In this document: positions 17,370 through 28,426 of the stretch, piece by piece
Numbering within the stretch: the first letter of the stretch is position 1
Layout: each line of letters begins with the position of its first letter
Origin: Candidatus Woesearchaeota archaeon
GTDB taxonomy: Archaea > Nanobdellota > Nanobdellia > Woesearchaeales > GW2011-AR9
Length of the DNA: 33,611 bases
Assembly: GCA_018657475.1 (NCBI GenBank)
Contig: JABHXC010000019.1
Span: forward strand, 1-33,611
Reading direction: 5' to 3'
The notes under the pieces: model-generated
Database searches by the model: none
What the model saw: only the letters and a program-made list of their open reading frames with translations
What the model was told of the DNA's origin: nothing
Program-made: the position numbers and the translations under genes

Positions 17370-18256
17370 TAGATATTCAATTTCTTGGAACCGCTTGTAT
17401 GGCACCAACTAAAAATAGGAACCACTCAGCAACTTTATTGAAATTTAAAGGAATGCATATTTTGTTTGATTGTGGAGAAAACACTCAGAGACAAATGAAA
17501 ATAGCTGGGATTAAACCAGGGAAAACAACTCATTTGTTGATAACTCATTGGCATGGCGATCACGTTTTTGGTATTCCAGGGTTATTGAGTACTATGGGTG
17601 CAGAATCTCCTGACCAACATTTACAAATTTATGGTCCAAAAGGTACAAAAAAATATATGGAACATCTTCTAAAATCATTTTCAGGTCATGATATTGCTAA
17701 TTTTACAATTACTGAGGTAAATCAGGGAATAATCTTTGAGAATGAAGATTTTTTTATTGAAGCTCAGCCAATGAAACATTCTATTCCTTGTGTTGGCTAT
17801 GCGTTTCAGGAAAAAGACAGATTAAGAATTAATGTTGCAAAAGCTAAGAAACTAAATCTTACTGGTCCAGTTCTTGGCAAATTACAAAAAGGCAAAAATG
17901 TTACTGTTGATGGAAAAAAAATCCTTGCCAATGACTTAACTTATTCAGTTGAAGGCAAACGGATAGGTTATGTTGTTGATACTTTACTTTGTACTGGTGC
18001 AACAAAAATTGCACAAGATTGTGATTTATTAATTGCTGAAGGTACTCATCTTGATGAGATTAAAGAAAAAACTGAACGTGCAAAACATCTTACAGTAAAA
18101 CAAGCAGCATTATTAGCTTCAGAACATAATGTAAAAAAACTGGTGGTTACTCATTTGAGTCAAAGATATAAGTCAACTGATAGAATTGTTGAAGAAGCTC
18201 GAACTTATTTTGATAATTCTATTGTAGCTGAAGATTTTATGAGATTTAAATTATGA
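17366..18256 (+). CDS. rnz: Ribonuclease Z (tRNase Z)
   Basis: Removes 3' trailers from tRNA precursors, required here because the one tRNA gene in view lacks encoded CCA. It has a metallo-beta-lactamase fold: the N-terminal signature IQFLGTACMAPTKNRNHSATLL, zinc motif His61-Trp-His63-Gly-Asp65-His66, a later His in MKHSIPCVGY, Asp in YVVDTLL and the closing VVTHLSQRY. At 296 residues it is the short tRNase Z(S) type. It overlaps the preceding HAD gene and the following hjc gene by 4 bases each, so all three should be translated as a unit. Confidence 0.95.
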   Translation: MIDIQFLGTACMAPTKNRNHSATLLKFKGMHILFDCGENTQRQMKIAGIKPGKTTHLLITHWHGDHVFGIPGLLSTMGAESPDQHLQIYGPKGTKKYMEHLLKSFSGHDIANFTITEVNQGIIFENEDFFIEAQPMKHSIPCVGYAFQEKDRLRINVAKAKKLNLTGPVLGKLQKGKNVTVDGKKILANDLTYSVEGKRIGYVVDTLLCTGATKIAQDCDLLIAEGTHLDEIKEKTERAKHLTVKQAALLASEHNVKKLVVTHLSQRYKSTDRIVEEARTYFDNSIVAEDFMRFKL

Positions 18257-18648
18257 ATCACAAAGCCAAAGGTACCCAGGGCGAACGTGTTTTAGTAAAA
18301 GCGTTTAATGAAGCAGGATGGTCATGCATTCGTGCAGCAGGCTCTGGTAGTTCTCCTTATCCTGCTCCAGATCTTCTTGCAGGTAATGCAATTAGGAGGG
18401 TCGCTATTGAGTGTAAAGTAACTGCAGCGAAAAAAAAATATTTATCAAAAGAAGAAATTTCACAACTTCAACAATTCTCACATCAGTTTGGAGCTGAAGC
18501 ATGGATAGGGATTAGATTTAGCCGACAACCTTGGTATTTTCTTCATCTGGAAGATTTAGAAGATACAGGTAAATCTTTAGCAGTGTCACAAAATATGGCT
18601 AAACTGAAAGGAATTTCTCTTTCAGAATTCTTTCACCTTACTGAGTAA
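18253..18648 (+). CDS. hjc: Holliday junction resolvase Hjc
   Basis: Archaeal structure-specific endonuclease that cuts four-way DNA junctions during recombination. The catalytic set Glu11 (TQGERVL), Asp40 (PAPDLL), Glu53 and Lys55 (IECKVT) matches the PD-(D/E)XK core of Sulfolobus Hjc. The basic and Gly/Ser-rich stretch RAAGSGSSPYPAPD is typical. The length of 131 residues is normal. It is the third gene of an operon, with ATGA overlap to rnz. The nearby TFE gene has its own upstream region. Confidence 0.95.
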   Translation: MNHKAKGTQGERVLVKAFNEAGWSCIRAAGSGSSPYPAPDLLAGNAIRRVAIECKVTAAKKKYLSKEEISQLQQFSHQFGAEAWIGIRFSRQPWYFLHLEDLEDTGKSLAVSQNMAKLKGISLSEFFHLTE

Positions 18649-20600: not shown

Positions 20601-21419
20601 ATGGCAAAAAGAGTTGAGTCACCATCATCTATTAACACATTTAAACAGTGTAAACGAAAATATTATTATCAATATATTGAAAAATTACCTACTCTTTCTA
20701 ACATCCATCAAGTTAGGGGAAACATTGCTCATTCCGCATTAGAATTATTTTATGACATTGATTCATCAAAATTTAATGAAGATAATTATGAACAAAAGTT
20801 TAAAAGTTCTTTACAACAAATTTTTTTACAACAATGGGTGAAAGAAAAAATTAGGTTAGACAAAATTGGCTTAAGTAAAGACCGTGAACGATTTTATTTT
20901 GAAGAAACTATGTTAATGTTAATGAATTGGGGGAACCATTTTGTTAATGATATTAAAACAACGATTGAAAAAAAGAAAGTATCTATTCCTGAAGCATTTC
21001 AAATTTTAACTCCAATAAGAGAACAAGAGTATCGTTCAACAAATTATTCAGTTAGAGGTTTTATTGATGCAATTCAACATGTAGAAGAAGAAGTTCATAT
21101 AATTGATTACAAAACAAACAGTAAATTTGATGTTAAAAATAGTATTAGGTTACAATTAGCAATCTATTCTTTGTTGTATCAAGAAAAACATGGTAAAGCT
21201 CCTTCCAAAGTAGGTGTTTTCTTTTTACGTCACAAATTAAAGATGCTTTCTGTTGATGAAGAATTGTTAAAATTAGCCCAACAAGAAATTGAATTAATTC
21301 ATGCCCATACAACAACAACAGAAGCAATAATGGATTATTCGCGTACAATCACTCCTTTATGTAAATGGTCTACAGGGCAGTGTGATTTCTATAAAACTTG
21401 TAAACCGCATGATAATTAG
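20601..21419 (+). CDS. RecB/Cas4-like PD-(D/E)XK nuclease with Fe-S cysteines
   Basis: Predicted DNA exonuclease of the RecB/Cas4 superfamily. Core residues are visible in order: His44 (RGNIAHSALELF), Asp156 (VRGFIDAI), Asp169-Tyr-Lys171 (IIDYKTN) and Gln185 (QLAIYSLLY). One N-terminal Cys17 (FKQCKRKYYY) plus Cys254, Cys261 and Cys267 (CKWSTGQCDFYKTC) reproduce the AddB/Cas4 pattern for a 4Fe-4S cluster that pins the domain together. At 272 residues it is a stand-alone nuclease with no helicase part. No CRISPR array or cas1/cas2 is in the window, so a Cas role is unsupported; replication or repair is more likely. A GAGGGG Shine-Dalgarno fixes the ATG. Confidence 0.88.
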   Translation: MAKRVESPSSINTFKQCKRKYYYQYIEKLPTLSNIHQVRGNIAHSALELFYDIDSSKFNEDNYEQKFKSSLQQIFLQQWVKEKIRLDKIGLSKDRERFYFEETMLMLMNWGNHFVNDIKTTIEKKKVSIPEAFQILTPIREQEYRSTNYSVRGFIDAIQHVEEEVHIIDYKTNSKFDVKNSIRLQLAIYSLLYQEKHGKAPSKVGVFFLRHKLKMLSVDEELLKLAQQEIELIHAHTTTTEAIMDYSRTITPLCKWSTGQCDFYKTCKPHDN

Positions 21420-23108: not shown

Positions 23109-23960
23109 ATGAAAAATCAGCTAAAAACAGCAGCGTTACTTGGTTTACTCGCAGGATTATTCTTATTAATTGGCGGTCTAATTGGTGGAAGACAAGGTTT
23201 AATCATTGCATTAGTCTTTGCAGTCGGGTTTAATTTTGTTTCCTATTGGTGGTCTGCTAAAATCTCTTTAGCCATTTACAAAGCAAAAGAAGCTGATAGG
23301 AACCAATATGGTGACTTATACTCTATGGTTGAAGAAATTGCCCATTCCGCAAAATTACCAATACCAAAAATTTACATTGTAAAATCTCCACAAGCTAATG
23401 CTTTTGCTACTGGTAGAAATCATAAAAATGCAGTTGTTGCAGTTACAACTGGTATCATGAAAATTCTTAACAGAAATGAGTTGAAAGGAGTGTTAGCACA
23501 TGAAGTAGCCCATATAAAAAATAGAGATATTTTAATTTCATCAATAGCAGCAACTATTGCGGCAGTAATATCTTATTTAGCAATGATGGCACGTTGGGCA
23601 GCAATTTTTGGTGGGTTTGGTAGAAGCAGAGATGGTGGTAATATTATTGAACTTATTGTTTTAGCAATTATTGCTCCAATAATGGCAATGATTATTCAGT
23701 TTGCAATTTCTCGATCAAGAGAATTTTTAGCAGACTCAACCGGTGCAAAAATGATTAATGATCCATTTTCGTTAGCATCTGCACTAGAAAAGATTCATAA
23801 TAATGTTCATCACCATCCTTTGAAGAAAATGGGTACAACGGAAGCAACCGCACATTTATTCATTGCCAATCCATTTAAAGGAAAAAGTTTTCTAAAATTA
23901 TTTTCTACTCATCCTTCCGTTGAGAGTCGAACAAAAAAGTTACGTTCTATGAAACTTTGA
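23109..23960 (+). CDS. htpX: HtpX-like M48 membrane zinc metalloprotease
   Basis: Predicted membrane quality-control protease with its active site on the cytoplasmic side. Two N-terminal membrane helices (about 7-26 and 29-49) precede the catalytic motif His131-Glu132-Val-Ala-His135 (VLAHEVAHIKNRD), two further hydrophobic segments (about 141-169 and 179-200), and the third zinc ligand Glu205 in SREFLADSTGA. The C-terminal FSTHPSVESRTKKL is diagnostic. The length of 283 residues is normal. TTTTATAG at 23078-23085 is 27 bases before the ATG. The gene is divergent from the SET-domain gene. Confidence 0.95.
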   Translation: MKNQLKTAALLGLLAGLFLLIGGLIGGRQGLIIALVFAVGFNFVSYWWSAKISLAIYKAKEADRNQYGDLYSMVEEIAHSAKLPIPKIYIVKSPQANAFATGRNHKNAVVAVTTGIMKILNRNELKGVLAHEVAHIKNRDILISSIAATIAAVISYLAMMARWAAIFGGFGRSRDGGNIIELIVLAIIAPIMAMIIQFAISRSREFLADSTGAKMINDPFSLASALEKIHNNVHHHPLKKMGTTEATAHLFIANPFKGKSFLKLFSTHPSVESRTKKLRSMKL

Positions 23961-24011
23961 TCCACTAGACACACTGGACAACCATTCCTAGAGTTTATAT
24001 ACCTCTCTCTT

Positions 24012-24049
24012 ATTTTTTATACCCCACTTTTTAGTCTAGCAGAAAAGTG
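24012..24049 (+). promoter_or_regulatory. TATA box and start-site inverted repeat of the repeat-nuclease gene
   Basis: TTTTTTATA at 24013-24021 predicts a transcription start near 24043. A perfect 7-bp inverted repeat, CACTTTT (24025-24031) and AAAAGTG (24043-24049), lies exactly over that start. It could be an operator or a small hairpin at the 5' end. A second, more distant TATA-like run is at 23995-24002 (TTTATATA). Confidence 0.45.
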
Positions 24050-24062
24050 AAAGTATTCAAGA

Positions 24063-25253
24063 ATGGAAATGAAAGAGATTAAGATAAAGCAGGCAATTAG
24101 CTACATTCAAAAGCAGCTGAGTGGAAATTCACATCCTCCTTATTCTGATCTTAACAAAAAGTTTAATCTATCTACTTATAGAATCACCCTAAATGACCTA
24201 TATCCAAAACTTGGAATTGATGTACTTAACTTAAAATGTAAAAGACCAAACGCGTCTCAGAATAAAATTAAAAGACAACTGATGAGTTATGTTCGGAAAG
24301 AAGTAAAAAACGGTCATTTTCCTACACGAAGGTTTATTGAAAAAACATTTGGTTTAAGATTGACAGGGATTTTTAAAGGGATTGAAGATCTATATCAACA
24401 AGCCGGATTAAATTATGAACAACAAAGTAGTCAATTACTTAAAACACTAAAAGCGCAACAGCTACAAGAACTAGTTATTGAAATTATTGCAAAACTCAAT
24501 TTGAAATTAATTAAATCTAGAGGAACACATGAAAGAGGAGTTGATATAATTGCTAAAAATAAAGAAGGATTGATTGTTGGAATTGAAATCAAAGCTCACC
24601 ACAGATTTGAAGCAATTAAGAAGAGAAATATTCTACAATTGGAAAGATTTTTGATTAATGAAAATCTGACCAAAGTAATATTAATTACTACTTCCTCAAA
24701 GATTAATGTTAAGAATGAAAATCCAAAAATTGAAATTTTGAGTTATAATAACTTACAATCATTTTGTAATGAAAATCAGATTAATGTTTTGAAGAAAATT
24801 AGAGAAACTTCAATACATATGAAAACCAATGAAAAAGAAATCAAAAGAAAAGAAATTTTAGATTATGCAAAAAATAGGATTGCTAGGGGAAAGAAAATAA
24901 CTTCCAATATTATCTCAAAAGACTTGAATATTGATCTAAATACTTATTTTAAGAGTATTTATGAAGTCTATGATTATCTTAAAATCCTACCACCAATTAG
25001 AATTATGAGGGAAGGTAGGAGAAGCCCACACAAAGGCCATAAAAGAAATCTCATTATACAAAAGATGGTGAATTATATCAAAAAAGAGGTGTCTCGTGGT
25101 CATTATCCAAGTGGAATAGATGTGGGAAATCAATTTGGAGTTAAACATATTTGGAATTTTATAACAATGAAAGAATTATATGAAAAAGCTGGTTTTGAAC
25201 ATTACCATATTAGGAAGAAAAGAGGGCCAAGAAAAAAAGAAATTCAACTATAA
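24063..25253 (+). CDS. PD-(D/E)XK nuclease embedded between four DNA-binding-like repeats
   Basis: I know no named family with this layout. Four similar helical units of about 45 residues occur at about 8-52, 68-116, 260-308 and 330-378. Each has a Tyr-[I/V/A]-x-[K/R] helix (YVRKEVKNGHFP, YIKKEVSRGHYP), a polar helix ending F-G/N-L/V, and a final xxELYxKAGF-like helix, reminiscent of homing-endonuclease-associated repeats or winged-helix DNA binders. Between pairs two and three lies a Mrr/archaeal-resolvase-like nuclease core: GTHERGVDIIAK with Asp161, then GIEIKAHH with Glu175 and Lys177, and Gln192 in a following helix. The protein is very basic. No methyltransferase is adjacent. It could be a restriction-like, repair or selfish nuclease. 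An inverted repeat covers its predicted start site. Confidence 0.8.
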   Translation: MEMKEIKIKQAISYIQKQLSGNSHPPYSDLNKKFNLSTYRITLNDLYPKLGIDVLNLKCKRPNASQNKIKRQLMSYVRKEVKNGHFPTRRFIEKTFGLRLTGIFKGIEDLYQQAGLNYEQQSSQLLKTLKAQQLQELVIEIIAKLNLKLIKSRGTHERGVDIIAKNKEGLIVGIEIKAHHRFEAIKKRNILQLERFLINENLTKVILITTSSKINVKNENPKIEILSYNNLQSFCNENQINVLKKIRETSIHMKTNEKEIKRKEILDYAKNRIARGKKITSNIISKDLNIDLNTYFKSIYEVYDYLKILPPIRIMREGRRSPHKGHKRNLIIQKMVNYIKKEVSRGHYPSGIDVGNQFGVKHIWNFITMKELYEKAGFEHYHIRKKRGPRKKEIQL

Positions 25254-25395
25254 TTTTTTAAAGAAATCTCTTATTTTCTGTTTATACCCTGCATTGTACT
25301 TCTCTTGTGATGACCATGATCAGGAGCGTTATCATGCAGGGTTCATTTTCTTGATTCACACATTTTTTATATGATTAGTTAATTTGTACCAATCT
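25254..25395 (+). other. Intergenic region with a 9-bp inverted repeat
   Basis: ACCCTGCAT (25286-25294) and ATGCAGGGT (25334-25342) are perfect inverted copies 39 bases apart. The interior has a weaker TGAT/ATCA pairing. TTTATA at 25281-25286 overlaps the left arm. TTTTATATG at 25364-25372 is the likely TATA box of the next gene. The element could be a terminator for the nuclease gene, an operator or a small RNA. A box C/D RNA was considered but lacks a CUGA box. Confidence 0.4.
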
Positions 25396-26073
25396 GTGAG
25401 GAAAAAAAGAAAAAAGATTACTTCTAAACCCTTTTCTAGAGAGGAAGAAGAGGCATTGATTGCTAGTTTTACCAAACAAAATGGAACCACTTATTGGGAA
25501 GTTGAACCAATACCTTTACCAAAAATAAAAAGTAAGAAAGGAAAGAAAAGAGAAACACCTGAGAGAAGGTTTTTAGTTGAAAAGATCCCTACGTATTTAG
25601 AAGATTATTTTATGTACTCTAAAACAAAATATAAAACAAAATATAAAACAGAATCTAAAACAAAATCTAAAACCGAAGTTGGTTCTCTACTTGTTTATAC
25701 GCTCCCTTTAACAAACTGTTCACCAGTTGCAGAAATTTGTGAGCGTGTAGCTTTTGCTTCAACAGTGTTAGCAGAAGAACCAAACGGCTCAAAGATTCGT
25801 CATAAGATAGTATATCTTAATATGGGTGAAAAAAGACTTGCTTTAGGAATGTATGCAGCAAATACTCATCAACTTGAAGTTTTAGTAACTCATTTTGAAA
25901 ATCAGGATTTTGAACAAGTAGAATTTCCAACTTGTGTAGCAGCAGCATTACACAAAGTAATAATGACTCAACGAAACTTTGAGTTTGGCCCTTATGAGCA
26001 AAATGTTCTTTTAGAATCAGAAATTACAGCTCTCAAAGCTGCCTACAAAGGTCTAGAAGCAACATTACTCTAA
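25396..26073 (+). CDS. Orphan basic-to-acidic protein with KT-rich repeat linker
   Basis: Not recognised. I choose the GTG at 25396 (225 residues) because TTTTATATG at 25364-25372 is 26-28 bases upstream; a TTG four codons earlier is the alternative. The N-terminus is very basic (RKKRKKITSK). Residues about 75-94 are five copies of a four-residue unit (SKTK, YKTK, YKTE, SKTK, SKTE) that should be a flexible linker. The rest looks like a globular alpha/beta domain (RHKIVYLNMGEKRLALGMYA, QLEVLVTHFENQD) with a C-terminal helix. No membrane segment. It lies between the repeat-nuclease and another orphan, all in the same direction. Function unknown. Confidence 0.65.
   Translation: MRKKRKKITSKPFSREEEEALIASFTKQNGTTYWEVEPIPLPKIKSKKGKKRETPERRFLVEKIPTYLEDYFMYSKTKYKTKYKTESKTKSKTEVGSLLVYTLPLTNCSPVAEICERVAFASTVLAEEPNGSKIRHKIVYLNMGEKRLALGMYAANTHQLEVLVTHFENQDFEQVEFPTCVAAALHKVIMTQRNFEFGPYEQNVLLESEITALKAAYKGLEATLL
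25618..25677 (+). repeat. Five tandem 12-bp units inside the orphan gene
   Basis: Five consecutive copies of a unit close to TMTAAAACAAAA (M = A or C) encode the S/Y-K-T-K/E repeats. Differences are confined to one or two bases per unit, suggesting recent slippage. The reading frame is kept. Confidence 0.85.
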
Positions 26074-26153
26074 ACTTCTCAATTCCTTTTTTATAGTTAT
26101 TTTCTTGAGTATAATAATATTTATATCTCAAACCCTACTCACAACTCAAACGT

Positions 26154-27080
26154 ATGGATCGACAGATAAATTTTCATTTTGAGTTGGAGTCTGAAAGTGA
26201 CTTTGAGCGTAGTGCTCGAATTGTTTCTGTAGGAGATCAATGGCAACCAAGAAACGAGTGTAACATTCCAAAATTTAGTTTTCTTTATCGTGTTGACAAT
26301 TCATTAAATCAAAGATTAAATTCTACTGTTCCAATTAAATATCAGCCAATGACCCGTGCCGCAGTAATACTTGCTGAACAATACATTGCTTCTTTTGATA
26401 GTGTTTTTGATGAGCGTCCAGAATTTTGTGTACAAGTAACTCCCCTTAACAATGAATTTTTTGTTACACTATTAGAATATGGAATGGATGATCAATTTCA
26501 AGAAGCCATGGCCGTTGGAAAAACTCCTGCTGTTGGTCAGGTTTCAGTTGATAAGTTGTTAGCACAAGATTATTGGCGGCTTAAAGAGTTACAAGAGTTT
26601 ACTTCATCAGCACAAAAAACTTATTGTCTTGCACAGCTGAAAGCGGTAGATACTTCTGTTCAAAATATTCGCGCGAGGGTTGGATTAACAGACAAATCAT
26701 TCACAAAACCTTTAGAAGACAAAGTTGTGTTTGAAACACATGACGGCTGGGCAAATTTTGATTATTGGTCTTTAGTAAATGATTTTATTCTTCCATCAGA
26801 CATCTTTCATGAAGATTATAAACTTCCTTTAGCTGCTTCACTTTTGGGTATTGATAGTGCATTACAGGAAGAAATACCAGGAAAAGGCGGAGTTCTTACA
26901 ACAGACCCTATAGGAGACAAAACAAAAATGCTGTACGAAGTAACAATTGGTGTTCAAACATCTCCATTTCAATTTCACGTCCATATAAATCCTTGTGAAG
27001 ACACCGGATCAAGAAAAAGTTACACTACAAAACATTTTGAAATGGACGTAAGGGATCCAAGTAGCATTAAAAAAATATAA
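26154..27080 (+). CDS. Orphan 308-residue soluble protein
   Basis: Not recognised. It starts with an acidic and aromatic segment (MDRQINFHFELESESDF), has mixed alpha/beta character throughout and no membrane helix or signal. Notable pieces are EFCVQVTPLNNEFFVTLLEYG and a C-terminal strand-rich part, KMLYEVTIGVQTSPFQFHVH, followed by a Cys-containing turn (INPCEDTG). Only three Cys are present and form no obvious pair. TTTATAT at 26120-26126 gives a predicted start about 5 bases before the ATG. Its 3' end nearly touches the convergent HerA-like gene. It might be linked to the orphan upstream, which shares orientation. No function is proposed. Confidence 0.7.
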   Translation: MDRQINFHFELESESDFERSARIVSVGDQWQPRNECNIPKFSFLYRVDNSLNQRLNSTVPIKYQPMTRAAVILAEQYIASFDSVFDERPEFCVQVTPLNNEFFVTLLEYGMDDQFQEAMAVGKTPAVGQVSVDKLLAQDYWRLKELQEFTSSAQKTYCLAQLKAVDTSVQNIRARVGLTDKSFTKPLEDKVVFETHDGWANFDYWSLVNDFILPSDIFHEDYKLPLAASLLGIDSALQEEIPGKGGVLTTDPIGDKTKMLYEVTIGVQTSPFQFHVHINPCEDTGSRKSYTTKHFEMDVRDPSSIKKI

Positions 27081-27082
27081 AG

Positions 27083-28426
27083 TTACTCTAAACTTCTTAA
27101 TTCCCTCATAACTTTGTCAACTTGATTTCTTTTAGGAACCGCAATAGGAGACGAACCACCATGCCATGTAAATCTTGGCCGCATTTGTATTGGAAAAATT
27201 CGTTCATTAGCATCATCAAAAATAACTGCTGACCCTTTTAGCCTAGGTAACATGTCAATTTCTTGTTCCAATCCTTTACGCATATAACTTTGTGTTAACT
27301 GTCCTAGTGCCTCTACATCTATCCTGGCAGTTAATCTATGTGCAATTACTGTATCTGCCTGAGTCATAACATCAGTATGAATTTTTCCTGGCTGTTGTGA
27401 TGCTAAAATTAAAGAAATCCCTGGTTGTCTTCCTTCACGTAAAATAGTGATTAATGCATCTGTAGCAGCTGTTTTCCCTTCTCTTGGTAATAACTCATGT
27501 GCTTCATCTATTGCTAACCATACTAAAGGATCTTTTAATTGTTCATCATTATTTTTCGAAAAATAATGCATTGCTGCATCAACCGATTTAAATTCTTCAG
27601 TTTTTCTAGCCAACATCCTTTGATTAAATAAAGTGCGTGAAATCAAACCAACAACTAACGCTTTAATCTCCCAACCAGAAGCCATGGTTGCATAAGGTGA
27701 TACATCTAACACTGTAACTTGTCCACCTTTAACAAGATTTTTTAGAGGAGTTCCTTCTTTACTAAATATTCCCCAACCTTTAGCTTTCTTAAATTCATTA
27801 ATTACAACATTTCTTGTTACCAAATCACTTTCTTTATCTTCTTTAACCGTGAAAATAACATCATCTAATGCATAACTTTTTCCATGCCCTAGATCTTGTA
27901 CAACTTTTGTAATTAAAACTCCTTCTGCAGAATTTGGATTAATACTAAATGCCTGACACCAATCTCTTGGATTAACATCTAATGGACGTAATGAGAAAGG
28001 AAAATCAGTAGGAATTCCTTCTGATTTGTATTGATCATGAAATTTTGTTGGCGTGTAAATTTGTACATCTAACGATTTACCTTCAACACCCCATGATTTT
28101 AACAATTCTTCATCTTGCATATTTGGATACTTCATTGTCCAATAAATTCCCATAGTGTCTAGTAATACTATAGAAAGATTTTGTTTAATGTGTGGTGGTA
28201 AATCTGATAATCCTTCTGCAATACTCCCCATAGTGTAGGACTTACCACTACCTCTTTTACCTACAATAAACACAACGTGGGCACCGGCAACATCCATATA
28301 AACTGGGTTAGATAAAGAAGTTGTTTGACCCATTTTTATGTACTGTTTACCTAAAAAAATAGTTCCTTCTTTACCAAATTTTTCTAAGTTTTTTTTAGAT
28401 CTACCAATAATAACATCAAACACCAT
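27083..28426 (-). CDS. herA: HerA-like hexameric DNA-translocating ATPase
   Basis: HerA/FtsK-superfamily ATPase, expected to form a ring that pumps DNA during end resection. The 447-residue protein has a short N-terminal beta region (1-45) in place of a full HAS barrel, Walker A Gly56-Lys-Arg-Gly-Ser-Gly-Lys-Ser63 and Walker B LVWLAIDEAHELLP (301-314). It also has an arginine-finger stretch REGRQPG (331-337), the sensor ASQQPG and a C-terminal ATP-lid-like region. The usual partner NurA is not next to it, nor are Mre11 or Rad50 in this window. A strong TATA box (about 28447-28454) precedes the ATG. HerA-like proteins also occur in defence systems; here the convergent orphans make that possible but unproven. 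Confidence 0.9.
   Translation of the reverse strand: MVFDVIIGRSKKNLEKFGKEGTIFLGKQYIKMGQTTSLSNPVYMDVAGAHVVFIVGKRGSGKSYTMGSIAEGLSDLPPHIKQNLSIVLLDTMGIYWTMKYPNMQDEELLKSWGVEGKSLDVQIYTPTKFHDQYKSEGIPTDFPFSLRPLDVNPRDWCQAFSINPNSAEGVLITKVVQDLGHGKSYALDDVIFTVKEDKESDLVTRNVVINEFKKAKGWGIFSKEGTPLKNLVKGGQVTVLDVSPYATMASGWEIKALVVGLISRTLFNQRMLARKTEEFKSVDAAMHYFSKNNDEQLKDPLVWLAIDEAHELLPREGKTAATDALITILREGRQPGISLILASQQPGKIHTDVMTQADTVIAHRLTARIDVEALGQLTQSYMRKGLEQEIDMLPRLKGSAVIFDDANERIFPIQMRPRFTWHGGSSPIAVPKRNQVDKVMRELRSLE

Follow-up and report, generated by a model that had tools for sequence, protein, structure and literature searches.

The gene studied here encodes a protein of 396 amino acids in which a nuclease core lies between two pairs of repeats, and the question that it raises is what such a protein does in a Woesearchaeota genome of 1.06 Mb (G000; order Woesearchaeales; 100% complete): whether it is a selfish element, a nuclease of the host's own repair, a restriction enzyme or a regulator. 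The features are collected in Table 1, where, as in the text, the window is the whole stretch of 33,611 nucleotides that was analysed. The reading that we prefer, with a probability of about 0.5, is that of a selfish endonuclease of the homing type, encoded by a free-standing gene and expressed together with the host recombination regulon.

Table 1. Features of the nuclease gene and its promoter region, in positions of the window.
Feature	Position	Strand	Basis or remark
htpX-like M48 peptidase, gene 5' of the nuclease in G000 and G514	23109..23960	+	Pfam Peptidase_M48 E 1.4e-37, synteny
Upstream half-copy CACTAGACA	23963..23971	+	in tandem with the main box, after the htpX stop
radA-type box CACTGGACA	23972..23980	+	15 bp upstream of the TATA box
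TATA box (TATATA), predicted promoter element of the nuclease	23996..24001	+	
Repeat-repeat-nuclease-repeat-repeat protein, 396 aa	24063..25253	+	intact ORF, ATG start
Repeat R1, residues 7-54	24081..24224	+	repeat HMM
Repeat R2, residues 68-119, best-scoring copy	24264..24419	+	repeat HMM
Mrr-type PD-(D/E)XK core, residues 123-239	24429..24779	+	Pfam, alignment, AlphaFold
Core residue D161	24543-24545	+	
Core residue E175	24585-24587	+	
Core residue K177	24591-24593	+	
Core residue Q192	24636-24638	+	
Repeat R3, residues 261-310	24843..24992	+	repeat HMM
Repeat R4, residues 331-381	25053..25205	+	repeat HMM

The sequence-only reading had placed a PD-(D/E)XK core with Asp161, Glu175 and Lys177 in the middle of the protein, and the searches agree with the class and with the positions. 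Residues 127-212 match Pfam Mrr_cat PF04471 significantly (E 6.4e-7, 29.9 bits, cut-off 21), Mrr_cat_2 is above its cut-off too (residues 151-230), and relatives score up to 39 bits with Mrr_cat. In an alignment of 11 diverged members, E175, K177 and Q192 are invariant, Q192 lying in the helix after the ExK motif, and the catalytic Asp is kept across the alignment, shifted by one residue in some members. The AlphaFold model, made with 11 sequences (pLDDT 83.9, pTM 0.50), shows an alpha-beta-beta-beta-alpha-beta core (helix 123-145, strands 147-152, 162-166 and 171-177, helix 187-199 and strand 204-209), whose top structural neighbour is AF1548 (1y88; Z 11.4 over 106 residues, rmsd 2.5), followed by EndoMS/NucS and MspJI-type enzymes, with Hjc also close. 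Among known families, the Pfam profile and the 1y88 fold match place it with the Mrr-type nucleases, and with its residues it is a catalytic-looking Mrr-type PD-(D/E)XK core. The NCBIfam search gave a sub-threshold NucS hint only, and the PDB sequence searches with the whole nuclease and with the repeat profile returned no significant match. The Woesearchaeota family is like the Mrr_cat/AF1548-type proteins in core profile, in fold and in the D...ExK motif with a following conserved Gln; the latter usually have a single winged-helix domain, whereas the former has two to four unnamed HTH-like repeats. No Mrr N-terminal winged-helix domain was matched by Pfam in the nuclease, the repeats filling that position, and a description of an Mrr-type core with multiple flanking repeats was not found in the literature searched.

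Four homologous units, two on each side of the core, had been described from the sequence, and they are borne out by the repeat HMM, the shuffling and a common helix pattern in the model. The repeat HMM, of 52 positions and made from the relatives' repeats alone, finds four copies in a search of the single protein, at residues 7-54, 70-119, 261-304 and 332-379, with domain E-values from 2.8e-7 to 1.9e-17, and four of the six repeat pairs score above all 2,000 shuffles, R1-R3 (0.03) and R3-R4 (0.01) being weaker. They form one repeat family, with a unit length nearer 50 residues than the 45 first estimated. Across the whole genome, the repeat profile matches this nuclease (four times) and one paralogue (twice), and nothing else. 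In the AlphaFold model each repeat shows a long helix and then two or three short ones: 2-20, 27-34, 36-39 and 43-50 in R1; 63-82, 89-96 and 107-113 in R2; 257-274, 281-288, 292-295 and 299-306 in R3; and 322-344, 351-358 and 369-376 in R4. The pattern is the same in every repeat; a pTM of 0.50 does not fix how the repeats are arranged around the core. A model of R2 alone has weak and mixed helix-turn-helix and winged-helix neighbours, with SelB at the top (1wsu, Z 5.2) and others, LexA and DtxR included, at Z 4.4 and below. A TetR-like identity had been considered for residues 61-119 (2hyt, Z 6.3; a YF...LY pattern recalls TetR N-termini) and was dropped in view of these neighbours. Since they are weak and mixed, the repeats are termed weakly HTH-like and no more. 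The HNH_repeat (PF18780) has about 50 residues and is used in tandem beside a nuclease, and in both respects the Woesearchaeota repeats are like it. However, PF18780 matches neither the protein at E up to 10 nor the locus in the genome search, so the analogy to homing-endonuclease-associated repeats drawn in the sequence-only reading is not a sequence relationship.

The family profile was searched in 352 genomes of the order Woesearchaeales, of which nine match it at all. Six intact full-length members were found (G000, G514, G083, G180, G011 and G500) together with one decayed copy in G062. In that copy there is an internal stop, and the N-terminal repeats and the ExK motif are gone, decay of the kind that a homing gene would be expected to undergo. 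Three of the intact members, those of G000, G514 and G500, have two repeats on each side of the core, and the other three (G083, G180 and G011) have three before it and one after it. A paralogous subfamily has N-terminal repeats only, two or four before the core, and includes G000's own paralogue (contig 43) and G184; versions with four N-terminal repeats occur in other orders of the class (G300, G436 and G310). Matches in G044 and in G220/G188 were left out, being a helix-turn-helix domain plus core, a four-helix protein and a plain Mrr. The architecture sought in other genomes thus recurs as such in G514 and G500, but elsewhere it is replaced by the 3+1, 2+0 and 4+0 layouts. The symmetric clamp of two repeats, core and two repeats is accordingly not a conserved layout, and repeats that vary in number and side would suit a protein that reads DNA in modular fashion better than a clamp of fixed symmetry. 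A search of genome contigs gave three relatives, all already in the genome-search set. No relative of the nuclease was found among viral contigs (single-sequence and alignment scans, sensitive to close relatives only) or among phage and plasmid records (a scan likewise sensitive to close relatives only), so nothing points to viruses or plasmids as its home.

Two chromosomal positions recur. Against the nine genomes that match the nuclease family profile, htpX is present in 284 of 336 genomes and adenosylhomocysteinase in 193 of 336. The spot at the 3' end of htpX holds the nuclease in G000 (family f1) and in G514 (family f38), whose nuclease, 36% identical, is the only close orthologue of the window nuclease with the same layout. 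Within G514's genus, G261, G387 and G516 have no nuclease, htpX and the next gene being convergent with stops that overlap by 4 bases, and G515, in which htpX is 88% identical in DNA to that of G514, has an unrelated oxidoreductase-like gene at the spot. The comparison of htpX spots gave no pair of empty and filled sites close enough in sequence for mapping an insertion junction. The 3' spot of the adenosylhomocysteinase gene holds the nucleases of G083, G180 and G011 and the decayed copy of G062, convergent with the enzyme gene and overlapping its stop by 4-59 bases; it lies in a wider synteny block with an Lrp-type regulator upstream and pilin genes downstream. Behind this enzyme there is no nuclease in G204, G428, G494 and G500, all of G180's genus, and the diverged family member of G500 sits elsewhere in that genome. 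Close relatives therefore differ by presence and absence at a fixed spot, G514 from G515, G261 and G516, and G180 from G204, G428, G494 and G500. The nucleases of the window and G011 come from one host family and are 28% identical, those of G011 and G083 come from different families and are 45% identical, and those of G180 and G500, from one genus, are 31% identical. The nuclease lineage tracks position and not host, a picture that ancient paralogous loci with losses would also give. A functional link between nuclease and adenosylhomocysteinase was rejected: 193 of 336 genomes have the enzyme without the nuclease, G000 has the nuclease without the enzyme, and G180's enzyme is of a different type, 45% identical. 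Nor was there a sign that htpX had been transferred together with the nuclease, HtpX of G000 and G514 being 59% identical, the usual level between families.

The region 3' of htpX (window 23961-27080; homologous places L083-L092) is a variable spot with differing, unrelated genes among the genomes of the family, and a 470-aa gene is common to G010 and G037 there. Woesearchaeota have two adenosylhomocysteinase types (about 43-45% identical) in a syntenic place next to the Lrp-type regulator (L031-L034, L101-L120), which looks like the replacement of one type by the other in situ. By Pfam, the neighbours of the nuclease are a SET-domain protein, the M48 peptidase, two unknown ORFs and a HerA-like ATPase. 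The window also contains an Hjc resolvase (18253-18648) and a PDDEXK_1/Dna2-Cas4-like nuclease (20601-21419); neither these nor the HerA-like ATPase (27083-28426) directly adjoins the nuclease (all by Pfam).

The promoter region contains a feature that the sequence-only reading had missed and that is more informative than the symmetry of the repeats. The sequence ACACTGGACA is common to the regions upstream of the window gene and of G514's nuclease, 15 bases before the TATA box, and the pattern CACTGGACA-N15-TWTA is present exactly, on the sense strand, at window 23972-23999. The box, with at most one mismatch, precedes each of the six intact nucleases and the G000 paralogue; the starts of the G011 gene and of this paralogue are listed upstream of or at the TATA box, and the true ones are probably further downstream. 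A search for ACTGGACA-N(10-20)-TATATA gave nine matches in G000 and G514, the gap always being exactly 15, and none for the reversed pattern. Across the order, CACTGGACA-N15-TWTA without mismatch has 1,240 sites in 222 of 268 Woesearchaeales genomes, against 10 for the reversed pattern, a control that preserves base composition and not dinucleotide composition. The consensus of 99 sites shows a second CACTGG seven bases upstream and a TATA-like TATAAA at a fixed distance, and a second copy of the box, 7-8 bp upstream, is common at other sites. As an unbiased test, radA was taken from 30 genomes that nearly all belong to different families; 28 matched, and 27 had upstream sequence. Of these 27 loci, 23 carry the box no more than 800 bases away and with one mismatch at most (control none), and the remaining four have CACTGGACA copies at another spacing or just beyond 800 bases. 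At these loci, picked regardless of the box, the 15-base gap is again the commonest. A viral origin of the box was rejected, 2.9 million viral contigs containing two exact matches only.

The genes behind the box were read at 60 sites in G000, G180, G083, G010 and G011 and at five in G514, and about 40 of their proteins were checked in Pfam or NCBIfam, so that the list comes from five or six genomes, mostly chosen for carrying the nuclease. For recombination and repair, it contains RadA behind a small ORF (G000, G180, G010 and G514), Hef (G000, G010 and G011), NreA (G000 and G010), an Lhr-type helicase (G010), XerA-like recombinases (G000, G180, G083 and G010), an RNase-H-like exonuclease (G000 and G180) and, in G180, a Cas4-like nuclease, MCM and ribonucleotide reductase. 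Among genes of selfish or phage type, LAGLIDADG proteins are present in G000 (seven) and in G180, G083, G010 and G011 (several each), some of them below the Pfam cut-off; the seven are among about 20 box genes examined in G000. That genome has about 20 box sites, on contigs 6, 22, 25, 26, 33, 43, 45, 46, 50, 57, 61, 62, 67 and 70 (L160-L178) and in the window, which is its contig 41, and it contains six Bro-N genes directly behind the box (L160, L163, L164, L170, a fragment, L171 and L174), which by reading are DinD-like. KilA-N too belongs with the selfish or phage-type genes, and the rest of the list includes Sua5, DUF763 and a cytosine methyltransferase. On the radA test and this list, the box is a predicted promoter element of recombination genes.

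Homing endonucleases include six known catalytic classes, PD-(D/E)XK among them (PMC6083498). The Mrr-repeat family is like the free-standing ones in its stand-alone gene between conserved genes, in its presence and absence in close relatives, in the shared spots and in the decayed copy, and free-standing LAGLIDADG genes have the same promoter box; unlike theirs, its homing-type role is deduced from sequence and position. In the mechanism proposed, the HTH-like repeats would recognise a long DNA site on either side of the core, and the nuclease would cut the allele without the gene near the 3' end of htpX or of the adenosylhomocysteinase gene, according to its lineage. Gene conversion dependent on RadA would then place a copy of the nuclease gene at the break. 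Given the radA box in its promoter, the nuclease is predicted to be expressed at the same time as RadA, and production together with RadA, Hef, NreA and XerA would be favourable to a homing gene: a cut made then would be likeliest to be repaired by recombination. The many LAGLIDADG genes that share the box have the look of further selfish endonucleases, which may use this timing too.

The earlier suggestion of a selfish-type element thus finds a distribution that looks selfish, being rare, patchy and tied to shared positions, with one decayed copy. Position-bound and patchy is what a homing-type gene would be, with old paralogous loci and many losses as a possible alternative: lineage would follow position as well if there were two ancient paralogous loci and very many losses, and the adenosylhomocysteinase linkage belongs to a wider synteny block, as that of a vertically inherited gene would. 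A host repair nuclease would account just as well for a box in common with radA, Hef and NreA. Such a nuclease would belong to the radA-box regulon, be specific for structures or lesions, bind DNA non-specifically or at junctions through its repeats and be induced with RadA, Hef and NreA; it is the main rival to the homing reading, and we regard it as unlikely. In its favour, the box and spacing are those found at radA, Hef, NreA, MCM, ribonucleotide reductase and XerA, and EndoMS/NucS and Hjc, which act in repair or recombination, have folds close to that of the core. Yet a core repair function should be far less patchy than a gene found in only a handful of 352 genomes, the nuclease-type box genes in the genomes examined are mostly LAGLIDADG, and this genome already has the Hjc of the window.

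A solitary restriction or defence nuclease, whether a type IV enzyme like Mrr or a restriction subunit that lacks its methyltransferase partner, directed against foreign or modified DNA, would account for the Mrr_cat core, for the weak matches of the core to the phage-defence candidates PDC-S01 and PDC-S02 (E 2e-5 and 3e-4) and for the placement in variable spots. It is nevertheless quite improbable: as the sequence-only reading had observed, no DNA methyltransferase or intron adjoins the gene by Pfam check of the neighbours, and no defence gene was found near it by Pfam in the window; the Mrr N-terminal domain was not found, the promoter class is that of recombination genes, and defence genes are not expected to hold one insertion spot across families. 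Four HTH-like repeats and the tandem copies of the nuclease's own box could instead suggest that the protein is a regulator or a DNA-binding scaffold, its nuclease fold spent, that acts for example on the box itself, a reading that we find hardly credible given that E, K and Q are invariant in the 11 diverged members, with the Asp retained. Moreover, the box is present in most genomes without the nuclease family (222 of 268 are box-positive), which rules the family out as the general factor that binds the box. The homing-type endonuclease stays the preferred reading.

A wider proposal, at about even chances, is that Woesearchaeota have an SOS-like regulon, in which a tandem CACTGGnn-CACTGGACA would lie 15 bp upstream of TATA, at radA in nearly every family, and in which LAGLIDADG, Mrr-repeat and Bro-N/KilA-N genes would be placed under the box and expressed when recombinational repair is active. 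A haloarchaeal precedent at radA, together with the gene list, leads us to infer that the box may respond to DNA damage. That precedent is the UV-response motif TTTCACTTTCA upstream of radA1, and the induction of genes with this motif has been measured only in Halobacterium (PMC2556686). Both are short direct-repeat motifs in archaeal radA promoters and in those of a few co-regulated genes, but they differ in sequence, and the Woesearchaeota box has a fixed 15-bp spacing to TATA, more genes and endonucleases. The bacterial SOS regulon is similar in having one operator-like element before the recombinase gene, helicases or nucleases and selfish genes; it has LexA, homologues of which are absent from archaea (PMC2246294), and the regulation through the Woesearchaeota box is putative. 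Repair genes are not induced in Sulfolobus, and haloarchaea have a small motif (PMC2556686, PMC2246294). With LexA absent, a coordinated damage regulon in archaea is an old question, which a box of fixed spacing (222 of 268 genomes, and radA of most families tested) makes directly testable in DPANN. Regulation in DPANN is almost unstudied, and the box points to a set of candidate genes as well as to candidate selfish passengers. If the nuclease is a site-specific endonuclease, an Mrr core with countable repeats (2+2, 3+1 and 4+0) would be a natural series for relating repeat number to DNA site.

Several minor observations concern the loci behind the box. Three genomes encode a conserved protein of 45-53 aa (MxDLTTxTIxxLFExQ...FxxQxSGGWL) in the interval from the box to a Sua5/YrdC gene (L178:1234-1368 (-), L179:2600-2734 (-) and L211:2831-2989 (-)); it is possibly a small damage-response protein. 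DUF763 is found behind the box in G180 (L198:1788-2906 (-)) and directly after the nuclease in G500 (L036:9488-10612 (+)). By eye, intein-like insertions with LAGLIDADG-like stretches are present in a TruB/Cbf5-like pseudouridine synthase of G000 (L163:3-1982 (-)) and in Hef of G011 (L219:3-2993 (-)).
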